Assembly: GCA_947167565.1 (NCBI GenBank)
Contig: CAMVIN010000009.1
Coordinates: 1 to 35,172 of the forward strand
Direction: 5' to 3'
DNA from: an uncultured Clostridia bacterium
GTDB taxonomy: Bacteria; Bacillota; Clostridia; Lachnospirales; Lachnospiraceae
DNA: 35,172 nucleotides
This document shows positions 3,012 to 34,373 of the stretch, piece by piece. Under the pieces are notes generated by a model, which was not told where the DNA came from, made no database searches, and saw only the letters and a program-made list of their open reading frames with translations. How positions within the stretch are numbered: position 1 is the first letter of the stretch; every line of letters starts with the position of its first letter. The position numbers were made by a program, and so were the translations under genes.

Positions 3012-3048
3012 CCTTATTCAGGTATATAGAAAATAAAGGAGACTTGCT

Positions 3049-12226: not shown

Positions 12227-14245
12227 TTATTCCAGCGTGTAATTTTGAAGATCTGAATTAATCGCATCGGAGTATTGATTCAGGTTTTCTGAAATATTGG
12301 AAATGCTATCCGTCTCGGCGGATATTTTGTTGCTCTCGGTCACAATCATGTTACTGAGATTTAATATTTCATTGATGGTTGATGCCTGTTCCTGTGTCGT
12401 GGCTGCATTATCGGAAGCGACATCATTGATTTTTCCAATGCCGTTAGCGATTTCTACAATGCCGTCGGTTGCCTTTTTGACATCGGAACAGATGGAATCA
12501 AAAGATTTGTTGGCACTCTCTACGCCGGACATACATGCTTCCATATCGGTAATACAGATATCAGCTTTGCGGTTGATATCTTCGATGTTTTTTGTGATAC
12601 TGCCAATCAGCATGCGAATTGTCTCGGTGGCTTCCGATGACTGGCCTGCCAGCGTTCCTACTTCCGATGCAACTACGGCAAATCCCTTCCCCATTTCACC
12701 GGCTCTTGCTGCCTCGATGGAGGCATTGAGTGACAACAGATTTGTCTGCTCGGAAATAGCGTTAATAGCTTCGGTAATACCAGTGATTTCTTCGACAGTC
12801 TTTCCTGTGGCATGAATGATTTCAGTGAGGTCACGGATCGTATCGTTCAGGGTGGAAACATTCTTTGTCATATTCTGCATTTCCGATTTTCCTGTTGTGG
12901 AGGAGTCCATGGTCTCGGCGCACAAATCTTTGACGTCTTCCGCGTTCTGCGACAACTGGTTAGCGGTTGAGGCGAGATCAGTGGCGGCCCGGGCAATCTC
13001 ATCAATCGAGTCATTCATGGCACGAAGGATATTGTTGAGATTCTCTATAGAATCCCCCTGTGACTGGTTAGAAGAGGAAAGCGTGTGAGATATATCAAAG
13101 CACTCTCCCGCACTATTGTTCATATCATTTGAAATATGCGACAATTTCAATAACATATTTCGCATGTTGGAAATATAATCATTAAGATTTTCGCTGAGCG
13201 TAGTAATCTCATTATTTCCTTCCGGAACAAGAGCGACAGTAAAATCTCCCTTGCTAATATCGGTAAGTCTGTCGGATACAGTAGTTACCGGATTGATGAA
13301 TTTGGAAATAATCAGGTAAAGTGCCACGGCGAGCAGTATAAGTGAGACAAGAGCGATGATAAAAATCGTGGTTACTGTCTTCATAATACTGTTACTTACA
13401 AAGGAATATGGAACAGCAGATGCCACAATCCAAGAAGTTCCCTCGATATCTGTCGCCGAATACATCATTCTTCCTTTGGAAGTTTTAGCAATCTGCACTT
13501 TATCAGCGGTGATGGAATTTTCTGTATTCAGAGAATCCAGTACACTGTTTAGTCCCTGCATAACGGGATCTTTGCATTCTTCGGTTGTTTGACCGGCTAA
13601 GTCTGCTACACTGCTCACAAGAATATCTTTTGTGTCTTTGTTAATGATATAAAATGTAGTATCCTTAGAACTGGACTGGAACTGGCTCATTTTTTCTGCT
13701 ACTTTATCAAAGTTGATATCACTGCTCAGAACAACTTTATCCCTCAGCATGATAGAACAAGCAAGACAGGTTTTACCTGTAGAAGCGTCAAGATACGGTT
13801 CTGATGTGTAAATCTCACCATTTTTCTCCAGTGCTCCTATGTACCATGCTCTGTCCGTAAAGACAAAGGTGTCATCCGGAACCCAGCCGGAGCCGTCCAG
13901 AAACTTAGAGGTGTCACCGTATGCAATATAGATATCCTGAGAATCAGGATCCGACTCAGTGAGCTTTAAGAGCATAGAGAGAGCATCGTTGTAAGATAAT
14001 TCCGGCGTACTCTTCCAGACATCAGCAGTCTGCTTTACTCTGCCCTCAACGCTGCTCCACCAGTTGTATACCTCGTTGGAATAGGATACAGATTCTTTCC
14101 CCAGAACAGACTTTGTAAGTTCAAGTATTTTGTCGGACTGCATTTTGATACTTACAATGGTAATGATGGCAAGAATGACTGCGACAAATATAACGATTTC
14201 TGTCAGAAGAAGTTTTTTTAATGATTTTCTCTTTTTGTTAGCCAT
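12227..14245 (-). CDS. Methyl-accepting chemotaxis protein with periplasmic-type Cache domain
   Basis: A membrane chemoreceptor of 672 residues. Order: basic N-terminus '[16 protein letters not shown]', first transmembrane helix (about 14-35), an extracellular dCache-like sensor domain (about 40-275; '[20 protein letters not shown]' is typical), second transmembrane helix ('[19 protein letters not shown]'), a HAMP domain, and a long cytoplasmic coiled coil with the signalling hairpin '[20 protein letters not shown]' followed by '[13 protein letters not shown]'. The ligand is not predictable. No CheR pentapeptide is seen at the C-terminus. I chose the start at 14245 rather than 14263, since GAGAGG lies just upstream of it and the basic n-region begins there. 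No other chemotaxis genes are nearby, so this is an orphan receptor. Confidence 0.95.
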
Positions 14246-14277
14246 AGGATACCTCTCTTTCACATTGATGTACCTTA

Positions 14278-14306
14278 ATTTTACAACTTTCCGAATTATC
14301 TGTCAA
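14278..14306 (-). promoter_or_regulatory. Sigma-A type promoter of the chemotaxis receptor
   Basis: On the minus strand, -35 TTGACA (14306-14301) is 17 bases from -10 TAAAAT (14283-14278). It points at the receptor start at 14245. Confidence 0.8.
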
Positions 14307-14318
14307 TAAAGACAGGCG

Positions 14319-14345
14319 TTGACTAATTACTTATTTCAGTATAAT
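14319..14345 (+). promoter_or_regulatory. Promoter of mntP
   Basis: TTGACT (14319-14324) is followed after 15 bases by TATAAT (14340-14345), about 60 bases upstream of the mntP ATG. The -35 is only 12 bases from the divergent receptor -35, so the two promoters are back to back. Confidence 0.7.
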
Positions 14346-14406
14346 ATTATGAAAGAAAAGGGATAAAAAGAGGTGCTGTTTTTGAAGATTGTGATCAGGA
14401 GGATTT

Positions 14407-14970
14407 ATGGGTTTTTTAGAAGTGGTAATTCTGGGAATCGGTCTTGCTATGGATGCTTTTGCTGTGTCTATCTGCAAGGGGCTTTCTATGAATAAGGTTA
14501 AGTGGAAAAATGTACTGATTATTGCTCTGTATTTTGGGGCGTTTCAGGCGTTCATGCCGATGCTTGGATACTTTTTGGGAACCTCATTCAGTAGTTTTGT
14601 GAAGGCAATTGACCACTGGATTGCATTTTGCCTGCTCACGATTATTGGCGGAAATATGATCCGGGAGTGGAAAGACAGGGATGACGACAAAAAAACAGAT
14701 GAAGTGGGATTTCGAACGATGCTTCCGCTGGCGGTAGCTACCAGCATTGACGCACTGGCAGTGGGGATTACGCTGGCGTTCCTGGGAGAAAATGTTTTTT
14801 GGGATGGAGCAATCATTGGGGGTGTGACGTTCTTTATTTCGGGCATGGGGGTTCTGCTCGGAAAAAAATTTGGTGATCGTTTTCAAAATACAGCGAAATT
14901 GTTGGGGGGGATTGTTCTGATTCTGATTGGTGTGAAAATCTTACTGGAACATCTGGGTATCTGGAAATAG
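14407..14970 (+). CDS. mntP: Putative manganese efflux pump MntP
   Basis: A 187-residue inner-membrane protein of the MntP family (formerly DUF204), which exports Mn2+. It has about six hydrophobic helices in two related halves, each with the family's acidic motif: 'GLAMDAFAVS' with Asp16 and 'ATSIDALAVGITLAF' with Asp115. Between the halves is a charged loop 'REWKDRDDDKKTDE'. The length is standard. ATG 14407 follows AGGAGG. The leader is only about 55-60 bases, too short for the yybP-ykoY Mn riboswitch that often controls this family. It ends 2 bases from the convergent tmcAL stop, and no terminator hairpin was seen between them. Confidence 0.94.
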   Translation: MGFLEVVILGIGLAMDAFAVSICKGLSMNKVKWKNVLIIALYFGAFQAFMPMLGYFLGTSFSSFVKAIDHWIAFCLLTIIGGNMIREWKDRDDDKKTDEVGFRTMLPLAVATSIDALAVGITLAFLGENVFWDGAIIGGVTFFISGMGVLLGKKFGDRFQNTAKLLGGIVLILIGVKILLEHLGIWK

Positions 14971-14972
14971 TT

Positions 14973-16154
14973 TCATTCTACTATAAGTAAGGAGTGTTGG
15001 TATTCGTTCAGTCGATGCTCGCTATATTTCCGGCACCACACCTGACGGTACAAATCTGCGGCAAAAATGTCCTGTGAGAGCAGTGCATTTTCTTCTCTGC
15101 CGAGTTTTTTTGAGTCGGTGGCCAGACGTGATAAAATGGTAAAGCCTTCTTTTGCAGAATGTGACAGAAGAGAAGATGTGCCTTTTTTCATGCCGAGAAG
15201 TCTGAGGTATGGCATGGAATTTTCACTGGTGAAGGTGCCGTCGCAGTCTCTGGTGATTCCCAGCATGCACTGCAGAATTCCGCGACGGATTCGCCCTTCG
15301 GTAAATGCTCTGGTCCGGCAGTCTTCTATATATTCTGTCGCAGTGGTAAAATCATTAAGCCGGCTGTTCATCCGGTTTGCCAGTTTTTCCGGGATATCTT
15401 TATATTTTTTCAAATCTTTCGAGGATAAGAGAGCATAGCCAATCACAGAGGAAAAATCATCAAGACACAGGTGAGGAATGCTGCTTGTCATGATTTCTTT
15501 TCGAAGTGCAGTCGCTGAGGGAAATACGGAATGTTTGCTTTCCGTGGCATGATACGCCATTCCTTCTCGCTGAATTGTGTGAGGGATAAGTGTGGAGCAG
15601 GTCTTCTTCAGGGCAAGACAGTACTCAATGCCGAGAATGTTGTTCGGCTCGTGCAGAAGAGCTGACAGATTTTCTTTCTCCCCATTGTCCGCAGAAAAAT
15701 CCCATGTGTCCTCCAGTGCTTTCGCCCTCGCATGTGGGTAGGAAAGACCGGCGGATAGATATTTTGTGAGAGCCGTATGGAATGAATCGCTTTCCTTATA
15801 TAATTCTCCGGCAACTCTTTGAAGGGCAGACAGATTCCCGCACTCACTGCCAAAGCAGAGGTCGGTCACAAACCCGAGAGCATTTAGAGCCATCACGCCG
15901 CCCAGCGCAAAATCTCCGGCACTGGAAATGCCAAAGCGAACAGGAAGTTCAAAGACCAAATCCGCACCGCCGTCTAAAACAGCTCGGGCGCGGGTGTATT
16001 TGTCAAAAATAGCGGGTTCTCCGCGCTGTACAAAATCGCCGTTTAGGATAACGACGGCATAAGTTGCGCCCGTGATTTCTTTTGCTCTCTGAATCAGATA
16101 GGCGTGCCCCTCGTGAAAGGGATTGCACTCCGCGATAATTCCCACTACTCGCAT
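14973..16154 (-). CDS. tmcAL: tRNA(Met) cytidine acetate ligase TmcAL
   Basis: TmcAL (YlbM in Bacillus) uses ATP and acetate to form N4-acetylcytidine at the wobble base of elongator tRNA-Met. The 393-residue protein opens 'MRVVGIIAECNPFHEGHAYL', with the HxGH nucleotidyltransferase motif (His14-His17), then 'ILNGDFVQRGEPAIFDKYTR' and 'GADLVFELPVRF', all diagnostic of the family, and the C-terminal helical domain is complete. The start follows GAGGT on the minus strand. A -10 TATAAT lies upstream at 16205-16200. It overlaps nothing and converges on mntP. Confidence 0.95.
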   Translation of the reverse strand: MRVVGIIAECNPFHEGHAYLIQRAKEITGATYAVVILNGDFVQRGEPAIFDKYTRARAVLDGGADLVFELPVRFGISSAGDFALGGVMALNALGFVTDLCFGSECGNLSALQRVAGELYKESDSFHTALTKYLSAGLSYPHARAKALEDTWDFSADNGEKENLSALLHEPNNILGIEYCLALKKTCSTLIPHTIQREGMAYHATESKHSVFPSATALRKEIMTSSIPHLCLDDFSSVIGYALLSSKDLKKYKDIPEKLANRMNSRLNDFTTATEYIEDCRTRAFTEGRIRRGILQCMLGITRDCDGTFTSENSMPYLRLLGMKKGTSSLLSHSAKEGFTILSRLATDSKKLGREENALLSQDIFAADLYRQVWCRKYSEHRLNEYQHSLLIVE

Positions 16155-16360: not shown

Positions 16361-16481
16361 TATGAAATAGAAATACCGACAAGAAAGAAGTGGTTTTCCG
16401 TGAAAAAGAAAAAGTTACTGATTGTAATTGGTATCGTATTTTTGATTGTATGTGCTGGATTAGGAGCAGTCTTATTGTATT
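16361..16481 (+). repeat. Leader/anchor repeat, copy 1
   Basis: This segment covers the last 39 leader bases and the membrane-anchor codons of the gene at 16400. It recurs at 19786-19900 in front of the propeller-like gene. By my count there are 7 mismatches and one 6-base indel. After base 16481 the two sequences are unrelated. Confidence 0.9.
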
Positions 16482-16900
16482 TTAAGCCTCAGGTGACACA
16501 TGGCGAGTTTTCCTTTACACTGAATTATGAAATTAACGGTGAGGAGAAAGTGTTAGAGGATACAATTATATGTGATTATGATGGAATTGACATAGATGAG
16601 GGAAGGGGAATATTTCGCAAATGGAAAGCGGCTTTAGGAAAAGGCGGCAGCCAAATAGTACTATGGAAGGACGAGGATGATAATGGAGTAAAACAAGAGA
16701 TCTATTATAACTATGCGCCTCCGGGATATTATATGGGGGATCCGGAGTATAGTGAGAGAAATAAATATAATGCCTCAGATGTTGTTTTGAAAAAGACTTA
16801 TCCTGATTCGACAGAAGAATTGTTTGTTGATGAAGAAGAGCTTCTTGATGAATATCATATAAAAATAATTAGTTGGGACTGTGAACAGCCGATAAAATAA
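16400..16900 (+). CDS. Hypothetical membrane-anchored protein, first gene of accessory patch
   Basis: A 166-residue protein of no family I recognise. It begins with a basic n-region and one hydrophobic helix (about residues 6-27, 'IVIGIVFLIVCAGLGAVLLY'), probably a signal anchor placing the acidic, tyrosine-rich body outside the membrane. The anchor is nearly identical to that of the protein at 19825, but the body is unrelated, so the gene looks like a chimera. GTG 16400 fits where the anchor begins; the ribosome site (AGAAAG) is weak. The next gene starts 17 bases after its stop. Function is unknown; a membrane-exposed immunity role is possible from context only. Confidence 0.72.
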   Translation: MKKKKLLIVIGIVFLIVCAGLGAVLLYFKPQVTHGEFSFTLNYEINGEEKVLEDTIICDYDGIDIDEGRGIFRKWKAALGKGGSQIVLWKDEDDNGVKQEIYYNYAPPGYYMGDPEYSERNKYNASDVVLKKTYPDSTEELFVDEEELLDEYHIKIISWDCEQPIK

Positions 16901-16917
16901 GGGAGTGTGTGTTTGCA

Positions 16918-17322
16918 ATGAATTACGATATAGAGAAAAAATTTGCGGGAAATTTTATACAAAAAAGGTGGCAGGATAGGCTTATTTATGAACTTTCCAA
17001 AGAGAAAAAAAGAAAGACGGCTCTAAGTAGATTTTGTCATAATGCTGAAAATTATATTAAGAAAGATACTATAATATATAAAGGGTGTAATTTAGATGAT
17101 ATTTTTAATATAATAGCAGTTAAAACAGGGGAAGGGTGCTACATTATATCGTGGGATAAAGATGATGGATTATGTGTGAATCTCAGACAAGCCCTCGATA
17201 AAATTGACAATGCGGGCTTGTCAATGATTTTAATTTTTTCAGATTATTCAATTATTATTACTGAGCGGGAACATGGAGATACACTGAAATACTTACTTAA
17301 AAGGAAGGGAAAAGAGATGTAA
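16918..17322 (+). CDS. Hypothetical small protein, 134 residues
   Basis: I do not recognise the family. No signal or membrane segment is visible; the protein is basic at the N-terminus ('MNYDIEKKFAGNFIQKRWQD') and mixed alpha/beta after that, with a strand-like 'CYIISWDKDDGLCVNL' and 'MILIFSDYSIIITEREHG'. Size and composition resemble small cytoplasmic immunity proteins, but that is inference. Start choice is uncertain: GGGAG (16901-16905) is 12 bases before ATG 16918 and only 3 before the in-frame GTG 16909. The last codons (ATG TAA, 17317-17322) coincide with the start of a degraded copy of the propeller-like gene, so the stop codon may have been supplied by that junction. Confidence 0.7.
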   Translation: MNYDIEKKFAGNFIQKRWQDRLIYELSKEKKRKTALSRFCHNAENYIKKDTIIYKGCNLDDIFNIIAVKTGEGCYIISWDKDDGLCVNLRQALDKIDNAGLSMILIFSDYSIIITEREHGDTLKYLLKRKGKEM

Positions 17323-17400
17323 TCTTGATGGCAGCAATGATAAAAGACTATGAGGCGCTGGCTTGGAGAGGAATGTATCAGGTTTGAATGAAAAGAAGAG
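17317..17400 (+). pseudogene. Remnant of the propeller-like gene: three joined fragments
   Basis: The stretch matches three separated pieces of the gene at 19825: 17317-17345 resembles 20181-20209 (one difference), 17346-17362 resembles 20464-20480, and 17363-17397 resembles 20639-20673, including that gene's stop codon. About 250 and 160 bases are missing at the two joints. It encodes nothing in frame. It is the decayed 3' end of a former paralogue, left between two small genes. Confidence 0.8.
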
Positions 17401-17430
17401 AAAGAATGTGAATAAAGGAAAGGAGTTATT

Positions 17431-17975
17431 ATGAGTTTGTTTGGAAAAGTTGAACATAGAAAAATAGAATTACCGTTTTATTACATAAGAGAAGAAGAGG
17501 ATATTAAAGCAGGAGCCATTAGTATTGAGGCATGGGGGATAATAGATGGAAAAACTAAATACTTTTATGTACTCATGGAATTATCCGATAGTGTTATGTA
17601 TAATAATGGTGATTATGAGGAAATGCTGAAGATTTTGGAGGAAAATGTGGATAGAAGAGTTGTTTTGGACTTGAAGTATAAAAAGGGAAAATTAAAAGAT
17701 TTTAGAATAGATAAAGAATCATTAGTGCGCAATCTAAATGATTCAAGGTTTGGTAAGATAGATATTCTGGGCTGGGGGATTAATGACAAAAGCCAGAGAA
17801 TATTATAGATGTCATTGGCTTTTCAATTGAAATTGGCGAGAATAAGAAAATAGCAATAGTTAATGAACATATTTGCTATTCGGATATAGATTTAGACGAG
17901 TATATTAATAGAGTTAAATCAAGAATAGAACTGAGAATTCCAGATAAATATTTAATTGAATGTGGATGGAAGTAG
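17431..17975 (+). pseudogene. Hypothetical protein gene, interrupted by a one-base frameshift
   Basis: From ATG 17431, behind AAGGAAAGGAG, the frame stops at TAG 17806-17808 after 125 residues. The next frame continues without a break from about 17786 to TAG 17973-17975, reading 'PENIIDVIGFSIEIGENKKI' and ending 'IPDKYLIECGWK'. Adding one A to the AAAA run near 17786-17792 joins them into a protein of about 181 residues reading 'GWGINDKKPENIIDVIGF'. The composition is the same on both sides, so this is a recent deletion or a sequencing error in a homopolymer. The family is not recognised; the product looks cytoplasmic and acidic, beta-rich at the N-terminus. Its neighbours suggest an immunity-type role, without direct proof. 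Confidence 0.78.
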
Positions 17976-17977
17976 AA

Positions 17978-19156
17978 ATGAGATCTATTATAACGGAACA
18001 AAAAACATTATCATTAGCAGAAAAATGGGAAATAGATGTTCAGGCGTATAGGGCCGGCGCATCAGCAAGGACATCATCGCCTCAATGCCAAAAATGTAAA
18101 TATAATATTTTTGGCAATGCTATAAATTGTGAAAAATATAAAGATAAAAGAAAACCGAATCACATAATATTTTGCGAGAAGGAATGCATCTATTTTGAAA
18201 GTAATCAAAGAATTGAATTTGATACTACTATCAAGGAGAAAGATTCACTGTATGGTGGGATTTTAGGATTTTGTATTGGAGATATGCTAGGAGTTCCTGT
18301 TGAATTTACAAGCAGAGCTGAAAGAAATATAGACCCGGTTAAGGAACTACGAGCATATGGTACATATCATCAAGGGTTTGGTGTTTGGTCAGATGATTCA
18401 TCTTTGATGATAGCATTAATAGCAGTTTTAATTAAGGGCTATTCTCTCGATCTTTTATCGGAATATTTTGTTAAATATTATAAAGAGGGGCTTTTTACAC
18501 CAAATGGAGTCATGTTTGACATCGGTAACTCAACCAGACTTGCTATTGAAAATATTGTGAAAGGTGTTTCACCAATGATGTGTGGCGGGGCTACAGAGAG
18601 AGATAATGGGAACGGCTCATTAATGAGAATTCTGCCGATAGCTTTCTTGAACATTAGTGATAAAGACCAAAAAAAGATGGTTGAAGAAGTGTCTTCAATA
18701 ACTCATAGACACAAGCGATCGTTATTAGCGGGTATAATATATGTAAATTTTGTTTCAAATTTGTTTAAAGGTTATGAGAAAGATGGAGCATATGAAAGGA
18801 CAATAGAGTTTGTTAATAAAGAATGTAAGAATGAATATTTAACAGAATGGTCTTATTTTAGAAGAGTGTTAGAAAAAACAATTATTAATGAAAAGGTTGA
18901 TAGAATAAATTCAACAGGATATGTTATAGATACTCTTGAAGCAGTGTTTTGGCTGATATTTAATGGTCATTCATATGAAGAAATTGTACTAAACGCTGTA
19001 AACTTAGGTGATGATACAGATACGATCGCTGCTCTTGCAGGAGGATGTGCAGGTGTAATTTATGGCCTTTCGTCAATTAATGACAGATGGATACAAAACG
19101 TTGCAAAATTAAATGAAATAAAACAGTTAATAGATGAATTTCGGTCAGTAATATAG
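17978..19156 (+). CDS. ADP-ribosylglycohydrolase with cysteine-rich N-terminal extension (putative immunity protein)
   Basis: DraG/ADP-ribosylglycohydrolase enzymes remove ADP-ribose from modified targets, using a binuclear Mg2+ centre. The motifs are intact: 'GFCIGDMLGVPVEF' (about 97-110), 'WSDDSSLMIAL' (137-147), 'DNGNGSLMR' (209-217) and 'LGDDTDTIAALAGGCAGV' from about 343, with all expected Asp residues. Residues 1-85 are additional: Cys37, Cys40, Cys51, Cys66 and Cys70 ('CQKC', 'FCEKEC') suggest a small zinc-binding module. Members of this family act as immunity proteins against ADP-ribosyltransferase toxins (for example Tri1), and the SUKH neighbour supports that reading. ATG 17978, with GGAAG upstream, is my choice; in-frame ATGs at 17960 and 17966 are possible, and 17960 would overlap the broken upstream gene. 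392 residues. The enzyme class is firm; the immunity role is inferred. Confidence 0.9.
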   Translation: MRSIITEQKTLSLAEKWEIDVQAYRAGASARTSSPQCQKCKYNIFGNAINCEKYKDKRKPNHIIFCEKECIYFESNQRIEFDTTIKEKDSLYGGILGFCIGDMLGVPVEFTSRAERNIDPVKELRAYGTYHQGFGVWSDDSSLMIALIAVLIKGYSLDLLSEYFVKYYKEGLFTPNGVMFDIGNSTRLAIENIVKGVSPMMCGGATERDNGNGSLMRILPIAFLNISDKDQKKMVEEVSSITHRHKRSLLAGIIYVNFVSNLFKGYEKDGAYERTIEFVNKECKNEYLTEWSYFRRVLEKTIINEKVDRINSTGYVIDTLEAVFWLIFNGHSYEEIVLNAVNLGDDTDTIAALAGGCAGVIYGLSSINDRWIQNVAKLNEIKQLIDEFRSVI

Positions 19157-19183
19157 GATTGAGAAAAATAAAGGAGCTTAGAG

Positions 19184-19654
19184 ATGGAATTATATGATGA
19201 AGGGATCAAATTGACAAGAGAAGATATGAATGAATTTAGTAAAATGATGAATATTATATTTCCAGAAAAATATGTTGAATTTCTATTGAACAGTAATGGG
19301 GGAACTCCAGAGGAAGACTTAGTTTTTGATTTTATAGACGATGCATCAAATAAAAGAATAAGTACAGACATTAGAGAATTTTTTGTCTTTTATAAAAATG
19401 ATGAATCATCATACGATGATATAGTAAAAGTAAATAAAAAGATGAAGTCTGAAAAGTTGATATCAGACGAATACTTTGTTTTTGCAGATGATTCAGCAGG
19501 AAATCCTATATGTATGAAAACAGCGGGAAGTGATGTGGGAAGTATATACTTTTGCGATCATGAATTAGAGGATGCCGATGAAGGATATTTGCTGATGAGC
19601 AGAGTGGCGGATTCTTTCAGTGGATTTATAGAATCGTTGTATGTATTAGGATAA
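19184..19654 (+). CDS. SUKH (SMI1/KNR4) family protein, putative immunity protein
   Basis: A 156-residue cytoplasmic protein with the SUKH pattern: 'FPEKYVEFLLNSNGGTPEED' early (about residues 23-42), central 'FVFADDSAGNPICM', then 'GSIYFCDHE' and C-terminal 'VADSFSGFIESL'. SUKH proteins are a major class of immunity protein in bacterial polymorphic toxin systems, where they bind and block a matching nuclease or other toxin. No toxin gene is beside it. AAGGAG (19171-19176) is 7 bases before ATG 19184, and it starts 27 bases after the ADP-ribosylglycohydrolase, so the two are probably co-transcribed. The domain call is strong; the cognate toxin is unknown. Confidence 0.92.
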   Translation: MELYDEGIKLTREDMNEFSKMMNIIFPEKYVEFLLNSNGGTPEEDLVFDFIDDASNKRISTDIREFFVFYKNDESSYDDIVKVNKKMKSEKLISDEYFVFADDSAGNPICMKTAGSDVGSIYFCDHELEDADEGYLLMSRVADSFSGFIESLYVLG

Positions 19655-19655
19655 A

Positions 19656-19790
19656 GGGGGATTCTATGCAGAAAAAAAGGATTGTGTGATAGGGCGATGT
19701 GATCTGGATGGCGGAAAAATTAAGAAACTTATGATATATGATGCGAGTATACCTTTTGAGGCGACATTATGTGATGATGCAATTGTATGA
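19656..19790 (+). pseudogene. Internal fragment of a propeller-like gene
   Basis: One frame reads through 'GGFYAEKKDCVIGRCDLDGG' and 'KIKKLMIYDASIPFEATLCD' to TGA 19788-19790. This resembles the blade of the protein at 19825 that reads 'IAGSGNSLHKCNLDGSNDKM'. It has no start codon of its own and runs directly into the leader/anchor repeat at 19786. I read it as the decayed middle of another paralogue, joined to the next gene's leader. Confidence 0.65.
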
Positions 19791-19900
19791 AATAGAAATA
19801 CTGACAAGAAAGAAGTGGTTCTCAATGAAAAAGTTACTGATTGTAATTGGTATCGTATTTTTGATTGTGTGTGCAGGATTTGGAGCAGTCTTATTGTATT
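19786..19900 (+). repeat. Leader/anchor repeat, copy 2
   Basis: This matches 16361-16481, with 7 mismatches and a 6-base indel by my count. It covers the leader and membrane anchor of the gene at 19825; homology stops sharply after 'TTATTGTATT'. Confidence 0.9.
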
Positions 19901-20667
19901 ATTTTAACTATGAATCTGTTGCGTTAAACAAGAGCAGATTATATCCTTATATTAATAAAATGAAAGCGGACACCTTTTTAGAGAAAAACAACAATCCGGA
20001 ATCCTGCTATCAGATAGTTGATGGAACTATATATTTAATGGAACAAGGAGATTTGTATAAAGCACATATAGGGGATGACCGGATGAACAGAGTCATTTCT
20101 TATGTTCGCTCGTTTGTTGTGACAGAAGAATTTATTTTTTACTGTACTGAGATTGCAGGGTCTGGAAATTCATTGCATAAATGTAATCTTGATGGAAGCA
20201 ATGATAAAATGCTACACAAAAATGTTGATGCATGTACTATATTGGACGAAAACACATTGCTTTTATCAGGTCATATTGAGCAGTGGACTCTGTTGAGTTA
20301 CGCTTTGAAAAATGACCGGTTTGAGGAAATTGAAATTAACGGCAATGCGAGCCCTAAGAAAACATGTTTTCATGATAACTTGGCTGTTTATGCGGACACA
20401 TATGACATTAGTACAGTTGATACAGATTCAGGCGAAGTGAAAGAATTGTGGTCCTTGTACGATGACTATGAGGCATTGGCGGAAGTAACTTGTTTATACA
20501 TACATAATGATAAGATCTATTTCGGAGTAAGAGCGAGAAAGAAAAAAGCAGATTCTGTGACTGGGTTATGGAGCATGGATTTAGATGGGAAAAATCAGGA
20601 ACAGTTAACAAGGAAACAAGTAAATGAAATATGTTTTATTGGAGAGGAATGTGTCAGGTTTGAATGA
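19825..20667 (+). CDS. Membrane-anchored propeller-like protein (DUF5050-like)
   Basis: A 280-residue protein with an N-terminal signal anchor ('MKKLLIVIGIVFLIVCAGFG', residues 1-20, continuing to about 26) and an extracytoplasmic body built of repeated blades such as 'CYQIVDGTIYLMEQGDLYKA', 'LHKCNLDGSNDKML' and 'LWSMDLDGKNQEQLT'. The '(N/D)LDG' turns resemble DUF5050/TolB-type beta-propellers, though there are fewer blades than a full ring. Role unknown. I chose ATG 19825 since the anchor begins there and the same point starts the gene at 16400; the upstream in-frame ATG at 19738 lies within the fragment and leader repeat. Remnants of this family at 17317 and 19656 show it was once present in more copies here. 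Confidence 0.75.
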   Translation: MKKLLIVIGIVFLIVCAGFGAVLLYYFNYESVALNKSRLYPYINKMKADTFLEKNNNPESCYQIVDGTIYLMEQGDLYKAHIGDDRMNRVISYVRSFVVTEEFIFYCTEIAGSGNSLHKCNLDGSNDKMLHKNVDACTILDENTLLLSGHIEQWTLLSYALKNDRFEEIEINGNASPKKTCFHDNLAVYADTYDISTVDTDSGEVKELWSLYDDYEALAEVTCLYIHNDKIYFGVRARKKKADSVTGLWSMDLDGKNQEQLTRKQVNEICFIGEECVRFE

Positions 20668-20750
20668 AAAGAGAGGTATACAGATGGATTACTATTTACG
20701 CTTCAGATGCGGGAGGCATTTGTAAAAAAAATATAGGAAATCACAAACAT

Positions 20751-20850: not shown

Positions 20851-21876
20851 ATGGAAAAGCAGAATTTGGATTGGTCCAATCTTGGTTTCGCATATCATGA
20901 TACGACAGAGAGATATGTGTCAAATTACAAAGATGGCAAATGGGATGACGGTGTTATGACAAAGGATGCCAGTGTTGTCATCAATGAGTGTGCCGGCGTA
21001 TTGCAGTACTCGCAGTCATGCTTTGAGGGATTGAAAGCTTACACGACAGAGGATGGCAGAATTGTAACATTTCGTCCGGATTTGAATGCACAGCGTATGA
21101 TCGATACAACAAAGAGATTGGAGATGCCGTCATTTCCGGCAGAGCGCTTTGTAGAAGCAGTTGATAAAGTAGTAAAGGCCAATGCAGATTTTGTACCTCC
21201 GTATGGCTCGGGGGCTACTCTGTACATTCGTCCATATATGTTCGCCAGTGGTCCGGTTATCGGTGTGAAGCCGGCTGAAGAGTACCAGTTCCGTGTGTTC
21301 TGTACTCCGGTAGGACCATATTTCAAGGGCGGCGCAAAGCCGATTACGATTCGTGTCTGCGATTTTGACCGTGCAGCTCCTCACGGAACCGGTCACATCA
21401 AGGCAGGACTCAATTATGCGATGAGTCTTCACGCCATTGTAGATGCACATGCACAGGGATACGATGAAAATATGTATCTTGATGCTGCGACTCGCACAAA
21501 AGTAGAGGAGACAGGCGGCGCAAACTTTATTTTTATCACGAAGGATAATAAACTTGTGACTCCGAAGTCAGCGAGCATTCTTCCTTCTATCACAAGACGT
21601 TCTATCATGGTTGTGGCAGAGAAATATCTTGGTATGACAGTGGAACACCGGGAAGTACTCTTTGATGAAGTGAAAGATTTTGCCGAGTGTGGTCTCTGTG
21701 GAACCGCAGCAGTGATTTCTCCGGTAGGAAAGATTGACGATCACGGCAAAGAAATTCTGTTCCCAAGCGGAATGGAGGAAATGGGACCGGTGACAAAGAA
21801 ATTATATGATACATTGACAGGAATCCAGATGGGTCATATCGAGGCACCGGAAGGATGGATACACGAAGTAAAATAA
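20851..21876 (+). CDS. ilvE: Branched-chain amino acid aminotransferase
   Basis: A PLP enzyme that interconverts Leu/Ile/Val and their 2-oxo acids with glutamate/2-oxoglutarate, in the cytoplasm. The 341-residue protein matches the longer, eukaryote-like BCAT group: 'VLQYSQSCFEGLKAY', 'FRPDLNAQRM', 'YIRPYMFASG', then 'GHIKAGLNYA' with Lys184 as the predicted PLP Schiff-base lysine, 'VEETGGANFIFI' and 'GTAAVISPVGKI' near the C-terminus. All core motifs are present. AAGGA lies 6 bases before ATG 20851. It stands apart from other ilv genes, which is common in this group. It ends 24 bases before the Na/Pi cotransporter gene with no terminator seen, so read-through is possible. Confidence 0.96.
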   Translation: MEKQNLDWSNLGFAYHDTTERYVSNYKDGKWDDGVMTKDASVVINECAGVLQYSQSCFEGLKAYTTEDGRIVTFRPDLNAQRMIDTTKRLEMPSFPAERFVEAVDKVVKANADFVPPYGSGATLYIRPYMFASGPVIGVKPAEEYQFRVFCTPVGPYFKGGAKPITIRVCDFDRAAPHGTGHIKAGLNYAMSLHAIVDAHAQGYDENMYLDAATRTKVEETGGANFIFITKDNKLVTPKSASILPSITRRSIMVVAEKYLGMTVEHREVLFDEVKDFAECGLCGTAAVISPVGKIDDHGKEILFPSGMEEMGPVTKKLYDTLTGIQMGHIEAPEGWIHEVK

Positions 21877-21900
21877 CCCCCTAACAGAGAGGATTAATTT

Positions 21901-23526
21901 ATGTCAGTTTGGAATGTTATAAGTCTGATCGGCGGACTCGCCATGTTTATTTTTGGCATGAATCTGATGAGCGACGGATTGAAACTGGTAGCCGGATCTT
22001 ATTTAAAAAAAGTATTAGAGAAACTTACCCAGAACCGTGTGATTGCTATGTGCGTTGGTGCGGGACTCACAGCGCTTATTCAGAGTTCCAATGCCATGTG
22101 CGTTATGGTGGTTGGTTTTGTCAATGCCGGTATGATGGAATTGGAGCGTTCCGTTGGTATTTTGATGGGTGCCAAGATTGGAACGACGATTACCGGTCAG
22201 TTGATTGCTTTTAATATATCACAGATAGCACCGATTATTGCTTTTGTGGGTGTGGCAATCACAATGTTTGTAAAAAAACAAAAGGCTAAGAATGTCGGCA
22301 TGATTATAGCCAGTCTCGGAGTTTTGTTTATCGGATTAGGAACGATGAGCGATGCGATGAAGCCGTTGGCGAATGAGGCATGGTTCCAGTCTATCTTACA
22401 ACGTTTTTCTAACCCACTGCTTGGTGTATTGGTCGGTATGGTATTTACCATCGTTATTCAGAGTGCGTCGGCATCGGTGGGTGTCTTGCAGATGATGGCA
22501 CTCAGTGGTGTTATGGGATTTCAGCAGGCATTTTATATTATGCTTGGAATGAATATTGGAGCCAGTGTGGCACCGGTACTCGCTTCTTTGAATGCGAGTA
22601 AGGATGCTAAACGCGTGGCAATGATTGTTGTGTTGTTTGAGAGCATCGGCATGGCTTTATTCCTTGTTGTGACGCAGATTTTCCCGCAGACGCTGGATTT
22701 GATTGCGGGGACTTCGCCGGATAACCCAAGCCGTCAGATTGCCAATGCCAATACAATTTTTGAATGTATGACAGTTATTATTCTTTTGCCATGTGCTAAA
22801 TATCTTGTCAAGATGGCGAAGTGGCTGATTCCGGGTTCGGATGAGAAGGATAGCATGACGCTCCATTATATTGATGATTCCGGATACCAGTCCGGTACGG
22901 TTCTGATTGGTCAGATTGATCAGGAAGTAGGGCGTATGTATCAATTGGTTCATGATAATATTGAGGCTTCAACAAAAGTATATTTTGATACAGAGTTCAA
23001 GTTGGATGAAGAGAAATTCAATGATAATGAAGCGGTCGTGGACATGCTGAACAAAGAGATTACTTCGGCACTCATTCGTACCAGTGAGTTGGATATCACT
23101 CCGCAGGAAGCGAAATATGTCAGTGCGCTGTATCATATTGTGACGGATCTTGAGCGAATTGGGGACCATGCGGAAAACGTATTGGGTTATGCGCTTCAGA
23201 TGAAGCAGAATAACCAGAATTTTTCCAAAAAGGCGGTTAAAGAGATAAAAGAGTTGTCGGATACGGTATATGAGATTTTTGATCAGACTTTTGAACACTT
23301 CAAGGAACCGAGCAAAGACTATTATGTTTTGATTTATAACCTTGAGGATCAGATTGACAATTTGGTGGATAAGATGCGAAATACCAATATTAAGCGTCTG
23401 AGTAAAGGAAAATGTGAAGTGACGCAGGGCTCTTACTTCAATGAGATTCTTGTGGATTTGGAGCGTGTGGGTGACCATTGCCTGAATATTGCGAAAGCGG
23501 TAAGGCGATATCCGGTTAGAAATTAG
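21901..23526 (+). CDS. Na/Pi cotransporter family protein with C-terminal PhoU domain
   Basis: A 541-residue membrane protein that imports phosphate with sodium. The N-terminal half (about 1-310) has the two inverted repeats of the NptA/PNaS family: 'GLAMFIFGMNLMSDGLK', 'GLTALIQSSNAMCVMVVG' and 'GMVFTIVIQSASASVGVLQ'. The first carries the canonical QSS; the second has QSA. The C-terminal half (about 345-541) is a PhoU-like helical domain with 'LERIGDHAENVLGYAL' and 'DLERVGDHCLNIAKAV', which bind metal and regulate uptake in this family. ATG 21901 follows AGAGGA. It may use a sodium gradient of the kind Rnf produces. Operon with ilvE is possible. Confidence 0.94.
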   Translation: MSVWNVISLIGGLAMFIFGMNLMSDGLKLVAGSYLKKVLEKLTQNRVIAMCVGAGLTALIQSSNAMCVMVVGFVNAGMMELERSVGILMGAKIGTTITGQLIAFNISQIAPIIAFVGVAITMFVKKQKAKNVGMIIASLGVLFIGLGTMSDAMKPLANEAWFQSILQRFSNPLLGVLVGMVFTIVIQSASASVGVLQMMALSGVMGFQQAFYIMLGMNIGASVAPVLASLNASKDAKRVAMIVVLFESIGMALFLVVTQIFPQTLDLIAGTSPDNPSRQIANANTIFECMTVIILLPCAKYLVKMAKWLIPGSDEKDSMTLHYIDDSGYQSGTVLIGQIDQEVGRMYQLVHDNIEASTKVYFDTEFKLDEEKFNDNEAVVDMLNKEITSALIRTSELDITPQEAKYVSALYHIVTDLERIGDHAENVLGYALQMKQNNQNFSKKAVKEIKELSDTVYEIFDQTFEHFKEPSKDYYVLIYNLEDQIDNLVDKMRNTNIKRLSKGKCEVTQGSYFNEILVDLERVGDHCLNIAKAVRRYPVRN

Positions 23527-23554
23527 TGAATGGAAACGGGAAGGAGTATACCGG

Positions 23555-25720
23555 ATGATGAATCAAATAAAAGTTATAAGAAAAACGTTTGTTGGTGTGG
23601 TTGCTGCTGTTCTCTTAATGGGAACAGTGGTAATTGCTACACCGACAGACGTTTTTGCTAAGTCTAAAGTCAAAGTAAAGAGTATTGTTGTGACGTCGCT
23701 GTCAGGAAAGACTGTCTATGTTGCCAAGGGAAAAAAAGTGCCGCTGACCACAACGGTGAAAGTTACTCCCAATAAAGAAGCAAATAGGGCGGTTACGTAC
23801 CGAAGCTCGAACCGGAGGATTGCCTACGTGACATCTTCGGGAAAAGTGAAAGGGAAAAAGGCGGGTAAGACGACGATTACTGTAAGTTCTCTGAAAAATC
23901 CAAAGAAAAAGAAAAAAATAAAAGTTGTAGTTAAGAAAAAATCGATTAAGAAAATAACTTTTAAAAAGAAAATATTCAGCCTGGCGCCGGGGAAGAGTAT
24001 GTCCCTGAAGGCGACAATTTCACCGTCCAAAAATGTCAGTAAAATTCTCCGGTGGTCATCGGCAAATAAAAAGATTGTCTCTGTTTCCGCCAAGGGCGTT
24101 GTGACGGCAAAGAAAGCCGGCAGTGCCACAATTACCGTGAAGGCGACGGATGGAAGCGGTAAGTCTGCCTCCTGCCGGGTGGAGGTCTCAGAGGCTGCCG
24201 GACAGAAGCAGGAAACGACATCTGAGGACAAGACAGGAGAGACGCAGGAAAAAGAATTGCCGGCTTCATTTGCAGAGGAAAAACTCTCTTCTTGGACAGA
24301 GGGAAGTTATGGTGAGGACAATTTGAGCTTTTTCGGTGCGGATTATAGCACGTATACGATTACTGCTCTTCCGGATGGACTGAGTTCAAAAAAGAGCGAA
24401 AAAGAAGGACTTGTTGTCTACGGAACTCCAACAAAGAGCGGTGTCACCGAGGCTGTTATAAAAGCGACAGATTCAAAGGGGAACACATACACGGAAACAG
24501 TGTGGTTTCTTGTCGGTTCACCAGAGAAGATTGTGGGGGCTGGTCTTCCTGTATATGTGCTGGAGGCGGAAAATGACACGGAACAAAATGTATCTGCTGC
24601 GGTACGGTTTGAGGGGGGAAGCGGTAAGTACGCCCTGTCAGTGACTGATGACGGAGGAATTGGTGCGTCTCTTGCGGAGAATAATGGAACGGCCGGGGAT
24701 GATCTGACGCTGACAGCAAATGTTCAGAAAGCGGGTACATATACCGTAAAAGTTGCGGCTACTGATTTGGAGAAGGACTCTCTTACAGCGGAGGCGACAG
24801 TGGTTATTCATGTGGCGAAGGCAATTACGGTTTCCGGCACGGTGACAGATGCTGGTGGAAACGGCATGCCTTATGATTCGGTCACATTCACCAATGCGGA
24901 CCGGGGGGACCGCTATACGCCGACGGCGTCCGTGTTGTCTGGGGAGAGAAGCGGGAAATATCAGATCCGTGTTGCCACCGGAACTTATCGCGTGACAGCG
25001 GCGTACAATCGGGACAAGTCCAATAATGGCGCGGAAGTTACCTTGTCCGAACAGAAATACAGTGCGGCGGTGAGCAGAGTGAATCTGAAACTGCCTCTCT
25101 ATAAGGTCACGCTGACGAGCAGTGATGAAACATTTTTTCCTGCCCTGCATTCCTGGCAGATTTTGAGGGGAGAGTCGGTGGCGGTTTATGAAAAATCCGG
25201 TGATGCCCATACGGGAGAACTCTATTTGCGGGCAGGCACTTATGCTCTGCAATCCGGGGATTTTTATGAGAATGAGAAGTGTACCAATTCGGATGATTCG
25301 CCGCTGAATTGGTTCTATGGTTATACGGCGACGACCAGAAGGGACACCTGCCGATATGCGGCCAATTTTACAGTCAAGAATACGGCGGTGAGTCAGCAGG
25401 TCACAAAACTTCTGATACAAAAGGGAGATGTTGTGAATTCGGTTGTCTTTCCGGGGGTGAAAAACACGGAGGCGACTGTGAATATCGGTGAAATGGCAAC
25501 TATTTCAGAGGAAGAAAATATTTACGGATATCAATTTATTCCGCCTGAGAGTGGGGGGTATACCATTGATAACAGCCTGATTTCGCTTTATGACGAAGAG
25601 GGCAGTTTGATTGTAGCAGGTGACGATGGAAGTTATTTTTTGACAGAGGACGTGACTTATTATGTCGCGCAGGGCCCTTCTGTAACGACGACATCGTTTA
25701 CCATAAATAAAAAAGCGTAA
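23555..25720 (+). CDS. Secreted Ig-like (BIG2) surface protein, first of a tandem pair
   Basis: A 721-residue secreted protein. It has a signal peptide ('VIRKTFVGVVAAVLLMGTVV', cut near 'VFA-KSK' at about residue 35), then two lysine-rich bacterial Ig-like group 2 domains (about 40-127 and 128-213; 'VTYRSSNRRIAYVTSSGKVK' and 'AKGVVTAKKAGSATITVKAT' are typical). A Glu/Thr linker follows, then a putative-Ig segment with 'LPDGLSSKKSEKEG', another cadherin-like segment, a carboxypeptidase-regulatory-like module ('VSGTVTDAGGNGMPYDSVTF'), and a C-terminal beta domain. There is no LPXTG anchor; the basic domains may hold to the wall by charge. AAGGAG is 8 bases before ATG 23555. It is a paralogue of the next gene in the same order of domains. 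Confidence 0.85.
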   Translation: MMNQIKVIRKTFVGVVAAVLLMGTVVIATPTDVFAKSKVKVKSIVVTSLSGKTVYVAKGKKVPLTTTVKVTPNKEANRAVTYRSSNRRIAYVTSSGKVKGKKAGKTTITVSSLKNPKKKKKIKVVVKKKSIKKITFKKKIFSLAPGKSMSLKATISPSKNVSKILRWSSANKKIVSVSAKGVVTAKKAGSATITVKATDGSGKSASCRVEVSEAAGQKQETTSEDKTGETQEKELPASFAEEKLSSWTEGSYGEDNLSFFGADYSTYTITALPDGLSSKKSEKEGLVVYGTPTKSGVTEAVIKATDSKGNTYTETVWFLVGSPEKIVGAGLPVYVLEAENDTEQNVSAAVRFEGGSGKYALSVTDDGGIGASLAENNGTAGDDLTLTANVQKAGTYTVKVAATDLEKDSLTAEATVVIHVAKAITVSGTVTDAGGNGMPYDSVTFTNADRGDRYTPTASVLSGERSGKYQIRVATGTYRVTAAYNRDKSNNGAEVTLSEQKYSAAVSRVNLKLPLYKVTLTSSDETFFPALHSWQILRGESVAVYEKSGDAHTGELYLRAGTYALQSGDFYENEKCTNSDDSPLNWFYGYTATTRRDTCRYAANFTVKNTAVSQQVTKLLIQKGDVVNSVVFPGVKNTEATVNIGEMATISEEENIYGYQFIPPESGGYTIDNSLISLYDEEGSLIVAGDDGSYFLTEDVTYYVAQGPSVTTTSFTINKKA

Positions 25721-25736
25721 AAAAGGAGGAATGTGA

Positions 25737-28265
25737 GTGATGAAAAAACTTGCAGCAAAAACATTGGCAGGAGTTATGGCGGCAGCTATGATATTTACCG
25801 GAAGTGTGATTCGCACACCGTCCGCAGCTTCTGCAAAAACGAAAGTGACAGTGAAGAAAGTCAGTGTAAAGGCTCCGTCAGGCAAGACGGCCTATGTCGC
25901 AAAGGGAAAGAAAATTTCCCTGACGACAACTGTGAAAGTCACGCCGGATAAGGCGGCCAACAAGAAAGTGACTTACAAGTCGGCGAAAACGAGTATTGCC
26001 ACCGTCAATGCCAAGGGCGTTGTCAAGGCGAAGAAAGCCGGTACGACAAAAATAACTGTCAGTTCCAAGGTGAACAAGAAGAAAAAAGCAACAATCAAGG
26101 TTGTTGTCAAAAAGACAGCGGTCAAGAAAATTAAACTTGATAAAACAAGTTTATCAATGGGAGCGGGAGAGAAAAAGACACTGAAAGCCACAGTCACCGC
26201 GGCGAAGACAGCCAGCAAAAAAGTTCAGTGGAAGAGTTCTAAAACTTCTGTTGCGACAGTGTCATCGAAAGGTGTCGTGACGGCAAAGAAGAAGGGCTCC
26301 GCCCAGATTACTGTGACGGCTGCTGACGGAAGCGGGAAGAAAGCGACCTGTAATGTGACAGTGAAAGAGGCGTCAAATGCCGCGAAAAGCGGAGAGAGTG
26401 TGATAAATGCCGGACTGGTAAAAGCGTCTGTAATAAATGCCCGCACGATTTCGTTTACGCTGGACAGTAAGGCAAATCTGGATAAGAGCAAAGTGACAAT
26501 AAAGAGAAAATCGCATAAAGAGAGTTCTTATCTGAATACAGCTGAGATTGAAAATCTGTCTTCTTCGGATAATACCACGTATCAGGCAATTCTGCACCAT
26601 GAATCGGAATTGGAACTCAACGACTATGTACAGATAAATATTCCGTCCCTGAGCGGAACAAAGGCGATTGAGACGCAGTACAAAGAAAATGTGACCGCCT
26701 ATACGGATGACGAGGTCTCTACCTGGAATGTTGATACCTATGGCTCTCAGAAATTTACGTTTTATGAGAGCGAGGGATACAGTACTTACAGTATTACTTC
26801 TCTTCCGGCGGGCCTGACTTCCCAGACGAAGGGAAATTCCATACTGGTGAAAGGTACACCGACAAAGGCCGGACAGACGAGAGCAACGCTGACGGCAAAG
26901 GATGAGAGAGGGAATACGCTGACAAAGACCATTTATTTTGTGGTGGGTTCGGACACACAGATTGTCGGTGCCGCAGCACCGTATTATACAATGGCTGCCG
27001 AGACAAAAAATGCGTACAATGTCAATGCAGATTTCTTTTTTGCCGGCGGGAGCGGTTACTATGATTACAGCATAATTGACAAAGCAAATCTTGATATTTC
27101 TCTCGATTATGATGAGGGGATTTATGAAAACCGCATAGTGGGGACTACGACAAAGGCGGGAACTTATAACGTTAAGATACAGGCAACAGATAAGAGAATT
27201 CCAAATCTCTCAGCGACGATTACCATGACGTTTCACGTTGCCCAGGCAGTTACGATCAGTGGTAAGGTCTTGGATGCAACGAAAAACGGTATGCCTTGGG
27301 ATGAGATTGTATTTACCAATAAAGATTCTGGAAATCGTTATGTCTCCGGCGATCTTTATGCGAAAAGTCCTGCTGATTATGTGAAGTCCTCTGACTACGA
27401 TACCACGACCGCATATAACGAGGCATTAAAAGCAGCTAAAGACAAGGCGATGAATGGTGAGTATCAGATTCGGCTCGTAGAGGGAAATTATGATGTAAAG
27501 GTATATTATAACAGTGATTCAGATACTGCCGGAACAGTTCTGAGTTTGTACAATCAGTCTTACAAGGCAGATAATGCAGGCGTGAACTTTACACTTCCTA
27601 TGTACCGGGTTACCCTGTCGGGAGAAAAGGCAAATGCGGACGGAGAAAATATCCGACCGGAGTCATACACCTGGCATATTAAGAATGGTGATAACTGTTC
27701 GGTTTACCGTTACAAATCAGCAGAGTTAAGTGATTTTACGGCATTTACTTTTGTAAAGGCAGGGACCTATACAATTGAATCCGAAGATGTCAAAATAAAT
27801 ACCGAGGTAAAGACGGTGCCGGAGGTATCCGATCTTGACTGGTTTACCGGATACAACCGCACGACCACAACGACTTATGACCGTTGTCGGTACACAGCGA
27901 CAGTTAAAGTTTCCAATCAGTCTGTCAATGCTCCGCTCAAGGAAACAATTGTCAAAAAGGGAGTAATAGCAGCCTTTTCGACAATGAGTCAGGTCGGAGT
28001 TAAGGATACAACATATGTTGCAGAGTTGAATACTCATTATGAACTGAACCAGACCGGGGATTATTACGGTTATAAGTTTACACCGGATGAGAGCGGTAGT
28101 TACGATATCAGTGTTTCTTATGTGTATTTGTATGATGCAAATGGAACGCAGCTATCCTGGAGCGAGGAGAGTGGCTATGTGCTGACGGCAGGAACAACGT
28201 ATTATATCGCTTCGGGATATCGCCCGTCAATTGATGGCTTCCGGATTAAAAAAATGTCTGTTTAG
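25737..28265 (+). CDS. Secreted Ig-like (BIG2) surface protein, second of a tandem pair
   Basis: An 842-residue paralogue of the preceding protein. It has a signal peptide ('AAKTLAGVMAAAMIFTGSVI', cut near 'ASA-KTK'), two BIG2 domains ('VATVSSKGVVTAKKKGSAQI'), an extra domain of about 100 residues absent from its neighbour (about 220-310), the shared putative-Ig and regulatory-like modules ('LPAGLTSQTKG', 'ISGKVLDATKNGMPWDEIVF') with an insert rich in Asp/Ala/Lys, and the shared C-terminal beta domain ('YLYDANGTQL', 'TYYIASGYRP'). No sorting signal is visible. AAGGAGG (25723-25729) sits 7 bases before GTG 25737 and 10 before ATG 25740; either may be used. The 16-base gap suggests co-transcription with the first paralogue. 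Confidence 0.85.
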   Translation: MMKKLAAKTLAGVMAAAMIFTGSVIRTPSAASAKTKVTVKKVSVKAPSGKTAYVAKGKKISLTTTVKVTPDKAANKKVTYKSAKTSIATVNAKGVVKAKKAGTTKITVSSKVNKKKKATIKVVVKKTAVKKIKLDKTSLSMGAGEKKTLKATVTAAKTASKKVQWKSSKTSVATVSSKGVVTAKKKGSAQITVTAADGSGKKATCNVTVKEASNAAKSGESVINAGLVKASVINARTISFTLDSKANLDKSKVTIKRKSHKESSYLNTAEIENLSSSDNTTYQAILHHESELELNDYVQINIPSLSGTKAIETQYKENVTAYTDDEVSTWNVDTYGSQKFTFYESEGYSTYSITSLPAGLTSQTKGNSILVKGTPTKAGQTRATLTAKDERGNTLTKTIYFVVGSDTQIVGAAAPYYTMAAETKNAYNVNADFFFAGGSGYYDYSIIDKANLDISLDYDEGIYENRIVGTTTKAGTYNVKIQATDKRIPNLSATITMTFHVAQAVTISGKVLDATKNGMPWDEIVFTNKDSGNRYVSGDLYAKSPADYVKSSDYDTTTAYNEALKAAKDKAMNGEYQIRLVEGNYDVKVYYNSDSDTAGTVLSLYNQSYKADNAGVNFTLPMYRVTLSGEKANADGENIRPESYTWHIKNGDNCSVYRYKSAELSDFTAFTFVKAGTYTIESEDVKINTEVKTVPEVSDLDWFTGYNRTTTTTYDRCRYTATVKVSNQSVNAPLKETIVKKGVIAAFSTMSQVGVKDTTYVAELNTHYELNQTGDYYGYKFTPDESGSYDISVSYVYLYDANGTQLSWSEESGYVLTAGTTYYIASGYRPSIDGFRIKKMSV

Positions 28266-34352: not shown

Positions 34353-34373
34353 AATATGATTTCCTTTCTTGTT

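Follow-up and report, generated by a model that had tools for sequence, protein, structure and literature searches.

A patch of candidate immunity genes without a toxin between tmcAL and ilvE in an uncultured member of the Lachnospiraceae

What is a run of small and mutually unrelated genes doing between tmcAL and ilvE in a bacterium of the Lachnospiraceae? The window in which it lies (the whole stretch of DNA analysed, 35,172 nucleotides) is one contig, CAMVIN010000009.1, of the 3.08 Mb genome of an uncultured Clostridia bacterium, assembled in 271 contigs (GCA_947167565.1). The patch at 16361-20680 carries six open reading frames (ORFs), all on the plus strand, including a SUKH gene and an ADP-ribosylglycohydrolase gene (Table 1); ORFs without a family name are called here by their start positions. 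An earlier reading of this DNA, made from the letters alone (the sequence-only reading), proposed an orphan poly-immunity role, and this is supported by the present analysis. The patch is probably a heterogeneous, toxin-free poly-immunity locus, built from Rhs- and LXG-type cassettes and held at the tmcAL-ilvE junction, because no toxin domain was found in the six same-strand ORFs, they are absent from 16 of 16 measured congeneric intervals, five of them have homologues in toxin loci, and DNA of an Rhs-array gene lies inside the patch. Assembly from cassettes is suggested by the leader and tail of an anchored gene, which bracket unrelated coding sequence. From this context we infer the immunity role itself.

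Heterogeneous polyimmunity loci are described as sets of unrelated immunity genes uninterrupted by toxins, in one orientation and with small gaps, that vary between strains (Zhang et al., 2012, PMC3482391). The extended kind holds four or more unrelated types, and an adjacent recombinase was reported for several loci only (PMC3482391). As far as testable, the patch has the features described: its immunity-type genes appear unrelated in structure, lie on the same strand with small gaps and no toxin gene between them, and, in a comparison between species, are variably present. It is unlike the described loci in holding gene fragments, two anchored members with a common leader and three unnamed families. 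In addition, no recombinase gene was recognised among the neighbours scanned at 12230-16154 and 20851-23523, which encode MCP, MntP, a nucleotidyltransferase, IlvE and a Na/Pi symporter. Only SUKH and the glycohydrolase are described immunity classes; the other four candidates rest on context and fold.

The descriptive claims of the sequence-only reading were largely borne out. The patch is A/T-rich, with a G+C content of 0.334 (16361-20672) against 0.440 in the left flank (12227-16154) and 0.452 in the right flank (20851-28265). The ends of the window are also low in G+C (0.31 at 34001-35000, about 0.35 at 1-4000). The location between tmcAL and ilvE stands as well, with an ilvE_II match above its cut-off on the right and, on the left, a PRK13670 match below its cut-off, a family that we take to be tmcAL, as the earlier reading did. 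The six ORFs are separated by gaps of 17, 108, 151, 27 and 170 nt, and remnants sit in the three longer ones. Pfam names three of the six proteins (ADP-ribosylglycohydrolase, SUKH and DUF5050), the first two being neighbours as claimed. The small genes 16918 and 17431 had been called unrecognised, and their proteins, like the 16400 protein, gave no credible match in Pfam, NCBIfam, PADLOC or PHROGs; for 16918 the best stray match was OKR_DC_1_N (0.028), and for 17431 it was a plant photosystem model (0.0006, 20 bits, cut-off 105). No toxin family was found among the ORFs of 16361-20680 in Pfam and NCBIfam scans, and no DNA of the Rhs cores on contigs C8 and C212 of the same genome was found within the patch.

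Table 1. Features of the patch and its flanking genes, in window coordinates.
Feature	Position	Strand	Evidence or remark
Nucleotidyltransferase (tmcAL-like), left flank	14976-16154	-	NCBIfam PRK13670, 299 bits, under cut-off 360
Leader copy 1	16361-16481	+	5' untranslated stretch, start codon and hydrophobic anchor
16400 gene, candidate anchored immunity protein, 166 aa	16400-16900	+	N-terminal hydrophobic segment from leader, then unnamed ectodomain
16918 gene, candidate cytosolic immunity protein, 134 aa	16918-17322	+	Unnamed family; predicted fold resembles a chain of a CDI complex
Tail remnant of second DUF5050-type gene	17317-17396	+	Three collinear pieces of 20181-20209, about 20464-20480 and 20639-20672
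17431 gene, candidate immunity protein, 125 aa	17431-17808	+	Unnamed family; complete
3' fragment of unnamed gene	17796-17975	+	Open frame ending in stop
ADP-ribosylglycohydrolase, candidate Imm-ARG	17960-19156 (start 17960 or 17978)	+	PF03747 E 8.7e-64, 216 bits
SUKH (SMI1/KNR4) immunity protein, 156 aa	19184-19654	+	PF09346 E 1.9e-20, 74.2 bits, cut-off 25.4
Fragment of anchored-type gene of C8 Rhs array	19688-19786	+	88% DNA identity, 99 bp, to C8:34878-34976
Leader copy 2	19786-19900	+	90% identical to 16361-16481
DUF5050 gene, candidate outward-facing anchored immunity protein, 280 aa	19825-20667	+	PF16472 E 2.8e-10, 40.3 bits, cut-off 27
ORF remnant, right patch edge	20671-20722	+	94% over 52 bp to ORF on C26
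ilvE, right flank	20851-21876		ilvE_II 385.7 bits, over cut-off

The interval itself is not a fixed core operon of the genus. The tmcAL-like gene is present in 38 of 39 genus genomes, the source genome included, and 20 of the 37 other loci were fetched; none of these encodes a patch protein at E 1e-4. Sixteen tmcAL-ilvE intervals could be measured, in a comparison between species (tmcAL 46-58% identical); they range from 164 to 7746 bp, hold differing genes or are empty, and all lack the patch. The remaining four loci either show no ilvE (L049, L050, L052) or have it on the other side (L054). Thus, the genomes seen have this neighbourhood in common, and among them only the source genome has the patch. 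In some of these loci (L038-L057) the interval is empty; in others it encodes a putative GDSL-type hydrolase, a putative signalling set of three genes or a pair resembling glutamine amidotransferases. The tmcAL-ilvE interval looks like a variable junction in general.

The source genome supplies a stronger argument for the poly-immunity reading than association across whole families does. Three stretches of patch DNA have matches elsewhere in the genome and two of the three fall in Rhs arrays; by our own arithmetic these arrays, counted with 2 kb on each side, amount to about 0.3% of the genome. The C8 gene matched by the fragment at 19688-19786 stands between Rhs-core segments. The same two matches speak against a rival explanation, that these are unrelated small accessory genes of housekeeping or regulatory function, adjacent by chance, as glycohydrolases and SUKH proteins occur in many contexts; this is improbable, although 16918 relatives in Priestia, Peribacillus and Oscillospiraceae lack recognisable toxin genes nearby and 18 of the 19 glycohydrolase loci fetched lack Rhs, LXG and HINT sequence. 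The recurrence of two patch families in one toxin array and the predicted fold of 16918, both described below, also argue against it.

Relatives of the 16918 protein are rare (five of 397 family genomes, source genome counted). In the source genome, a 72% identical paralogue on C212 follows two short unrecognised ORFs and lies upstream of an Rhs-core segment. Elsewhere, a Eubacteriaceae metagenome-assembled genome (L083) carries an Rhs-HINT gene, three small genes and then the 16918 relative, in Bacillus sp. FJAT-25509 (L092) an Rhs ORF lies on each side of the relative and the second of them carries Ntox8, and in G376 a relative split into two frames lies beside YezG-like and SUKH genes. Furthermore, the predicted 16918 fold matches a chain of a contact-dependent inhibition (CDI) complex, PDB 5t86, over 99 residues (VIA-align). 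The overall fold is thus like that of what is presumably the CDI immunity partner of E. coli A0 34/86, whereas identity is 10%, there is no sequence-level match, and 16918 relatives occur with Rhs rather than CdiA. The predicted fold gives an independent point for 16918 as a candidate new immunity family, as the sequence-only reading had proposed, and singles out a chain of a toxin-immunity complex.

The C212 locus (L065) shares repeats with other contigs. Copies of a 76-bp imperfect palindrome (34-nt arms, 6-nt loop), 98.7-100% identical, occur on C212 (1355-1430 and 4660-4735 of L065), C8 (L077, 6835-6909 and 7955-8029) and C26 (L114, 6700-6775); two bracket the Rhs/16918 cassette on C212, and the palindrome was not found in the window. 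The NUDIX gene at L065 963-1353 is 98.5% identical over 391 bp to one on C34 (L104, 6989-7379). This match ends 2 nt before the palindrome, and the longer C34 copy adjoins a paralogue of 16400. Another repeat, of 68 bp and 90% identical, is common to the window (3282-3349) and C212 (L065, 798-865).

For 17431, relatives are also scarce: four of 397 family genomes and, with a profile, two of 391 genomes of the class, the source genome counted. The sequence-only reading held that this gene needs repair, which did not stand. At 125 aa it compares with homologues of 127 and 128 aa in G319 and G085, which end within two residues of it, and a frameshift was rejected on this common C-terminal end; the open stretch after 17431 is therefore the tail of another gene. 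In G319 (L078) a 17431 relative (54%) and a SUKH relative (68%) occur in one HINT-toxin array, which supports 17431 as a candidate new immunity family. A SUKH fragment (67%) is present in the locus as well, and a further SUKH gene, more distantly related, immediately follows a PT-HINT toxin that carries a WHH nuclease domain. The sole other SUKH match in the source genome lies directly behind a colicin-DNase/WHH toxin ORF, with one base of overlap. Contig C53 (L105, 2914-7759) carries in succession a gene for a HerA/TraG-like ATPase, an ORF for a colicin-DNase/WHH toxin and a SUKH gene. Within the G319 array (L078, 6851-11657) there are several small genes of membrane type, very similar to one another and alternating with other candidate immunity genes, in what looks like a series of antidotes or a repeated spacer.

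The glycohydrolase matches Lmo0067 and 6dre in the PDB and contains the acidic motifs WSDDSS and GDDTDTIA, which are presumably catalytic. It scores 168.6 bits against the Tri1 model (NF041672), under the equivalog cut-off of 490. Twenty other places in 299 family genomes match at E 1e-40 or better, the best being 53% identical and the rest up to 44%. The closest relative found (G094, L138) has an LXG gene, LXG-like tips and small genes around it; the tips have no Pfam name, and no ADP-ribosyltransferase was recognised next to the glycohydrolase or this relative. A cysteine-rich N-terminal extension (window 17990-18240) is common to the two proteins and several others start without it; the G094 gene has an in-frame stop just before it.

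The 16400 family was found in two of 299 family genomes, source genome counted. In Monoglobus pectinilyticus (L097) its relative stands between two Rhs-core genes, the first carrying a class-3 lipase tip that seems to suffer a break in frame before its end, and the second an amidase tip. The lipase tip ahead of the 16400 relative fits an outward-facing antidote. With this, the 16918, 16400, 17431, SUKH and glycohydrolase proteins each have at least one relative in an Rhs or LXG/HINT locus, and relatives of the patch genes are not confined to non-toxin contexts.

How often toxin sequence lies near family members was surveyed by tblastn with Rhs, LXG and HINT queries only, on contigs of which several are short. 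The queries were cut from L083, L092, L097, L077, L138 and L078, which match themselves by construction, and the domains there are shown separately. L084, on the same contig as L066, was omitted; five of 16 plasmid records were fetched, L033 and L034 with nearly the same gene, and 19 of the 20 other glycohydrolase places. Where no toxin lies near a family member, it could be an orphan antidote like those of the window, or have another role.

Several points weigh against the poly-immunity reading. Toxin sequence was found in 3/23 loci for 16918, 1/4 for 17431, 1/4 for 16400 and 1/19 for the glycohydrolase, with 0/20 in the tmcAL background, and 3/23 against 0/20 is not significant alone. The toxin context of 17431 comes from one relative only, 54-55% identical, in the G319 array, and the SUKH relative was met in this same locus, fetched for 17431, and so is no independent survey. 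Around the C34 paralogue of 16400, tblastn detected neither Rhs nor LXG nor HINT sequence. As to the fold of 16918, 5t86 was not among the profile matches to the PDB with E up to 10, and its chain I is taken by us to be the immunity partner from the chain letter. Promoter-like and terminator-like counts in the patch are about those of shuffles (32 against 24.8, standard deviation 4.9; 1 against 1.0). DUF5050 is the weakest member and its immunity link is indirect. Its protein and ectodomain have no relatives in 171 other family genomes or in plasmids, one other DUF5050 match in the genome, on C13, is weak and below cut-off, and direct homology with the anchored genes that stand in the Rhs array on C8 is unsupported (hhalign probability 1.7%); one such gene gave a BLASTP E of 3e-4 as a single pair, over the first 106 residues with the anchor included.

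An anti-phage or toxin-antitoxin island is a very remote alternative. The PADLOC candidate model PDC-M40A matches the SUKH protein at 1.9e-8, while at a threshold of 0.01 PADLOC gives nothing for the remaining five proteins of the patch, and pattern-based scans of viral contigs gave no relatives of 16918, 17431, 16400 or SUKH; a phage origin is likewise not supported by these scans.

How the poly-immunity locus came about can be read in part from its anchored genes and debris. Two anchored proteins with common leaders had been noted, and the leaders align over 121 columns with a score of 189, where 300 dinucleotide shuffles reach at most 26. The DUF5050 ORF was listed from 19738, and its start was set at 19825, the start codon of the shared leader. 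Both leader-bearing proteins have a single N-terminal hydrophobic segment by hydrophobicity, and their remaining part would face outward. In a four-sequence alignment of the 16400 family, in which the start of the C34 protein was placed by hand at an in-frame position, the other three proteins have a membrane region and then a proline-containing stretch; this stretch is missing from the window protein, and the shared leader ends exactly at the start of the family's common ectodomain.

Gene debris between the ORFs, also claimed earlier, was found at 17317-17396, 17796-17972, 19688-19786 and 20671-20722. The first piece, at the end of 16918 and just beyond, consists of ungapped pieces of the DUF5050 3' half, with 492 bp collapsed to 80 (score 119.8, maximum 54.3 in 300 shuffles). 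For 17796-17972 no family was found, with a single weak plasmid match at E 0.1. The C26 ORF matched by 20671-20722 adjoins an IS110 transposase; a transposase identity for the remnant is not supported, as the ORF has no credible Pfam match and no plasmid match.

The simplest history would be that a second DUF5050-type gene once occupied 16361-17396 and that the 16400 ectodomain and 16918 took the place of its body, with leader and tail left behind; the missing proline stretch and the end of the leader at the ectodomain start fit this. Tentatively, and with rather less confidence than the poly-immunity reading, it can be proposed that constant leader, anchor and tail form a shell, in which the exposed antidote domain, and even a second cytosolic antidote gene, would be exchangeable payload. 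Immunity proteins might then be polymorphic as toxins are, with 16400 a chimera and the tail of the displaced DUF5050 gene surviving downstream of 16918.

The same debris could point to a scrapyard in decay: the 3' end of what was once a toxin-immunity array, translocated and with genes now unexpressed or unselected. Four fragments among six ORFs, three of them derived from ORFs with longer copies elsewhere, and the low G+C suit this explanation, which is nonetheless unlikely: measured against homologues, five of the six main ORFs (16918, 17431, the 16400 ectodomain, SUKH and the glycohydrolase) have their full length or almost all of it, and it is the spacer pieces that are broken. The DUF5050 ORF has no full-length homologue for a comparison of length.

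If the patch is a poly-immunity locus, its products would guard the cell against toxins that neighbours deliver. The 16918, 17431 and SUKH proteins would do so in the cytosol, by binding toxin tips and thereby blocking them; the glycohydrolase, likewise cytosolic, would remove ADP-ribose put on by a toxin. The 16400 and DUF5050 proteins, at the outer membrane face, would hold off wall- or membrane-acting toxins as TipC does TelC. New antidotes would enter through recombination at shared leaders and tails.

Parts of this scheme have counterparts in known systems. Garrett et al. (2022, PMC9484751) describe TipC and EsaG arrays in which neighbouring genes recombine at highly similar 5' and 3' blocks, TipC being membrane-bound and outward-facing and acting at the outer face against TelC. 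Two patch proteins may be similar to TipC, with an N-terminal hydrophobic segment, a putative outward domain and shared 5' and 3' blocks. In contrast, the variable middles of TipC and EsaG are paralogous, whereas in the patch an unrelated ectodomain and a second whole gene lie between leader and tail. A lipobox-anchored immunity protein was exceptional in the collection of Zhang et al. (PMC3482391). The glycohydrolase resembles Imm-ARG, described in the same paper, and Tri1 in its domain and in having a relative in an LXG array; it differs in the Tri1 score below cut-off, the cysteine-rich N-terminal extension and the lack of a recognised adjacent ADP-ribosyltransferase.

Polyimmunity islands are known already; in this one, genes seem to have been exchanged within a membrane-anchor frame that they have in common. 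The patch adds up to three unnamed immunity candidates for the Bacillota, and the confident model of one of them is similar to a chain of a known toxin-immunity complex. It also lets the assembly of an orphan antidote island be read from the sequence. Toxin tips near relatives are known for four of the six genes, which makes cognate pairs directly testable. If the shell proposal is true, it would give gut bacteria a route for swapping surface antidotes.

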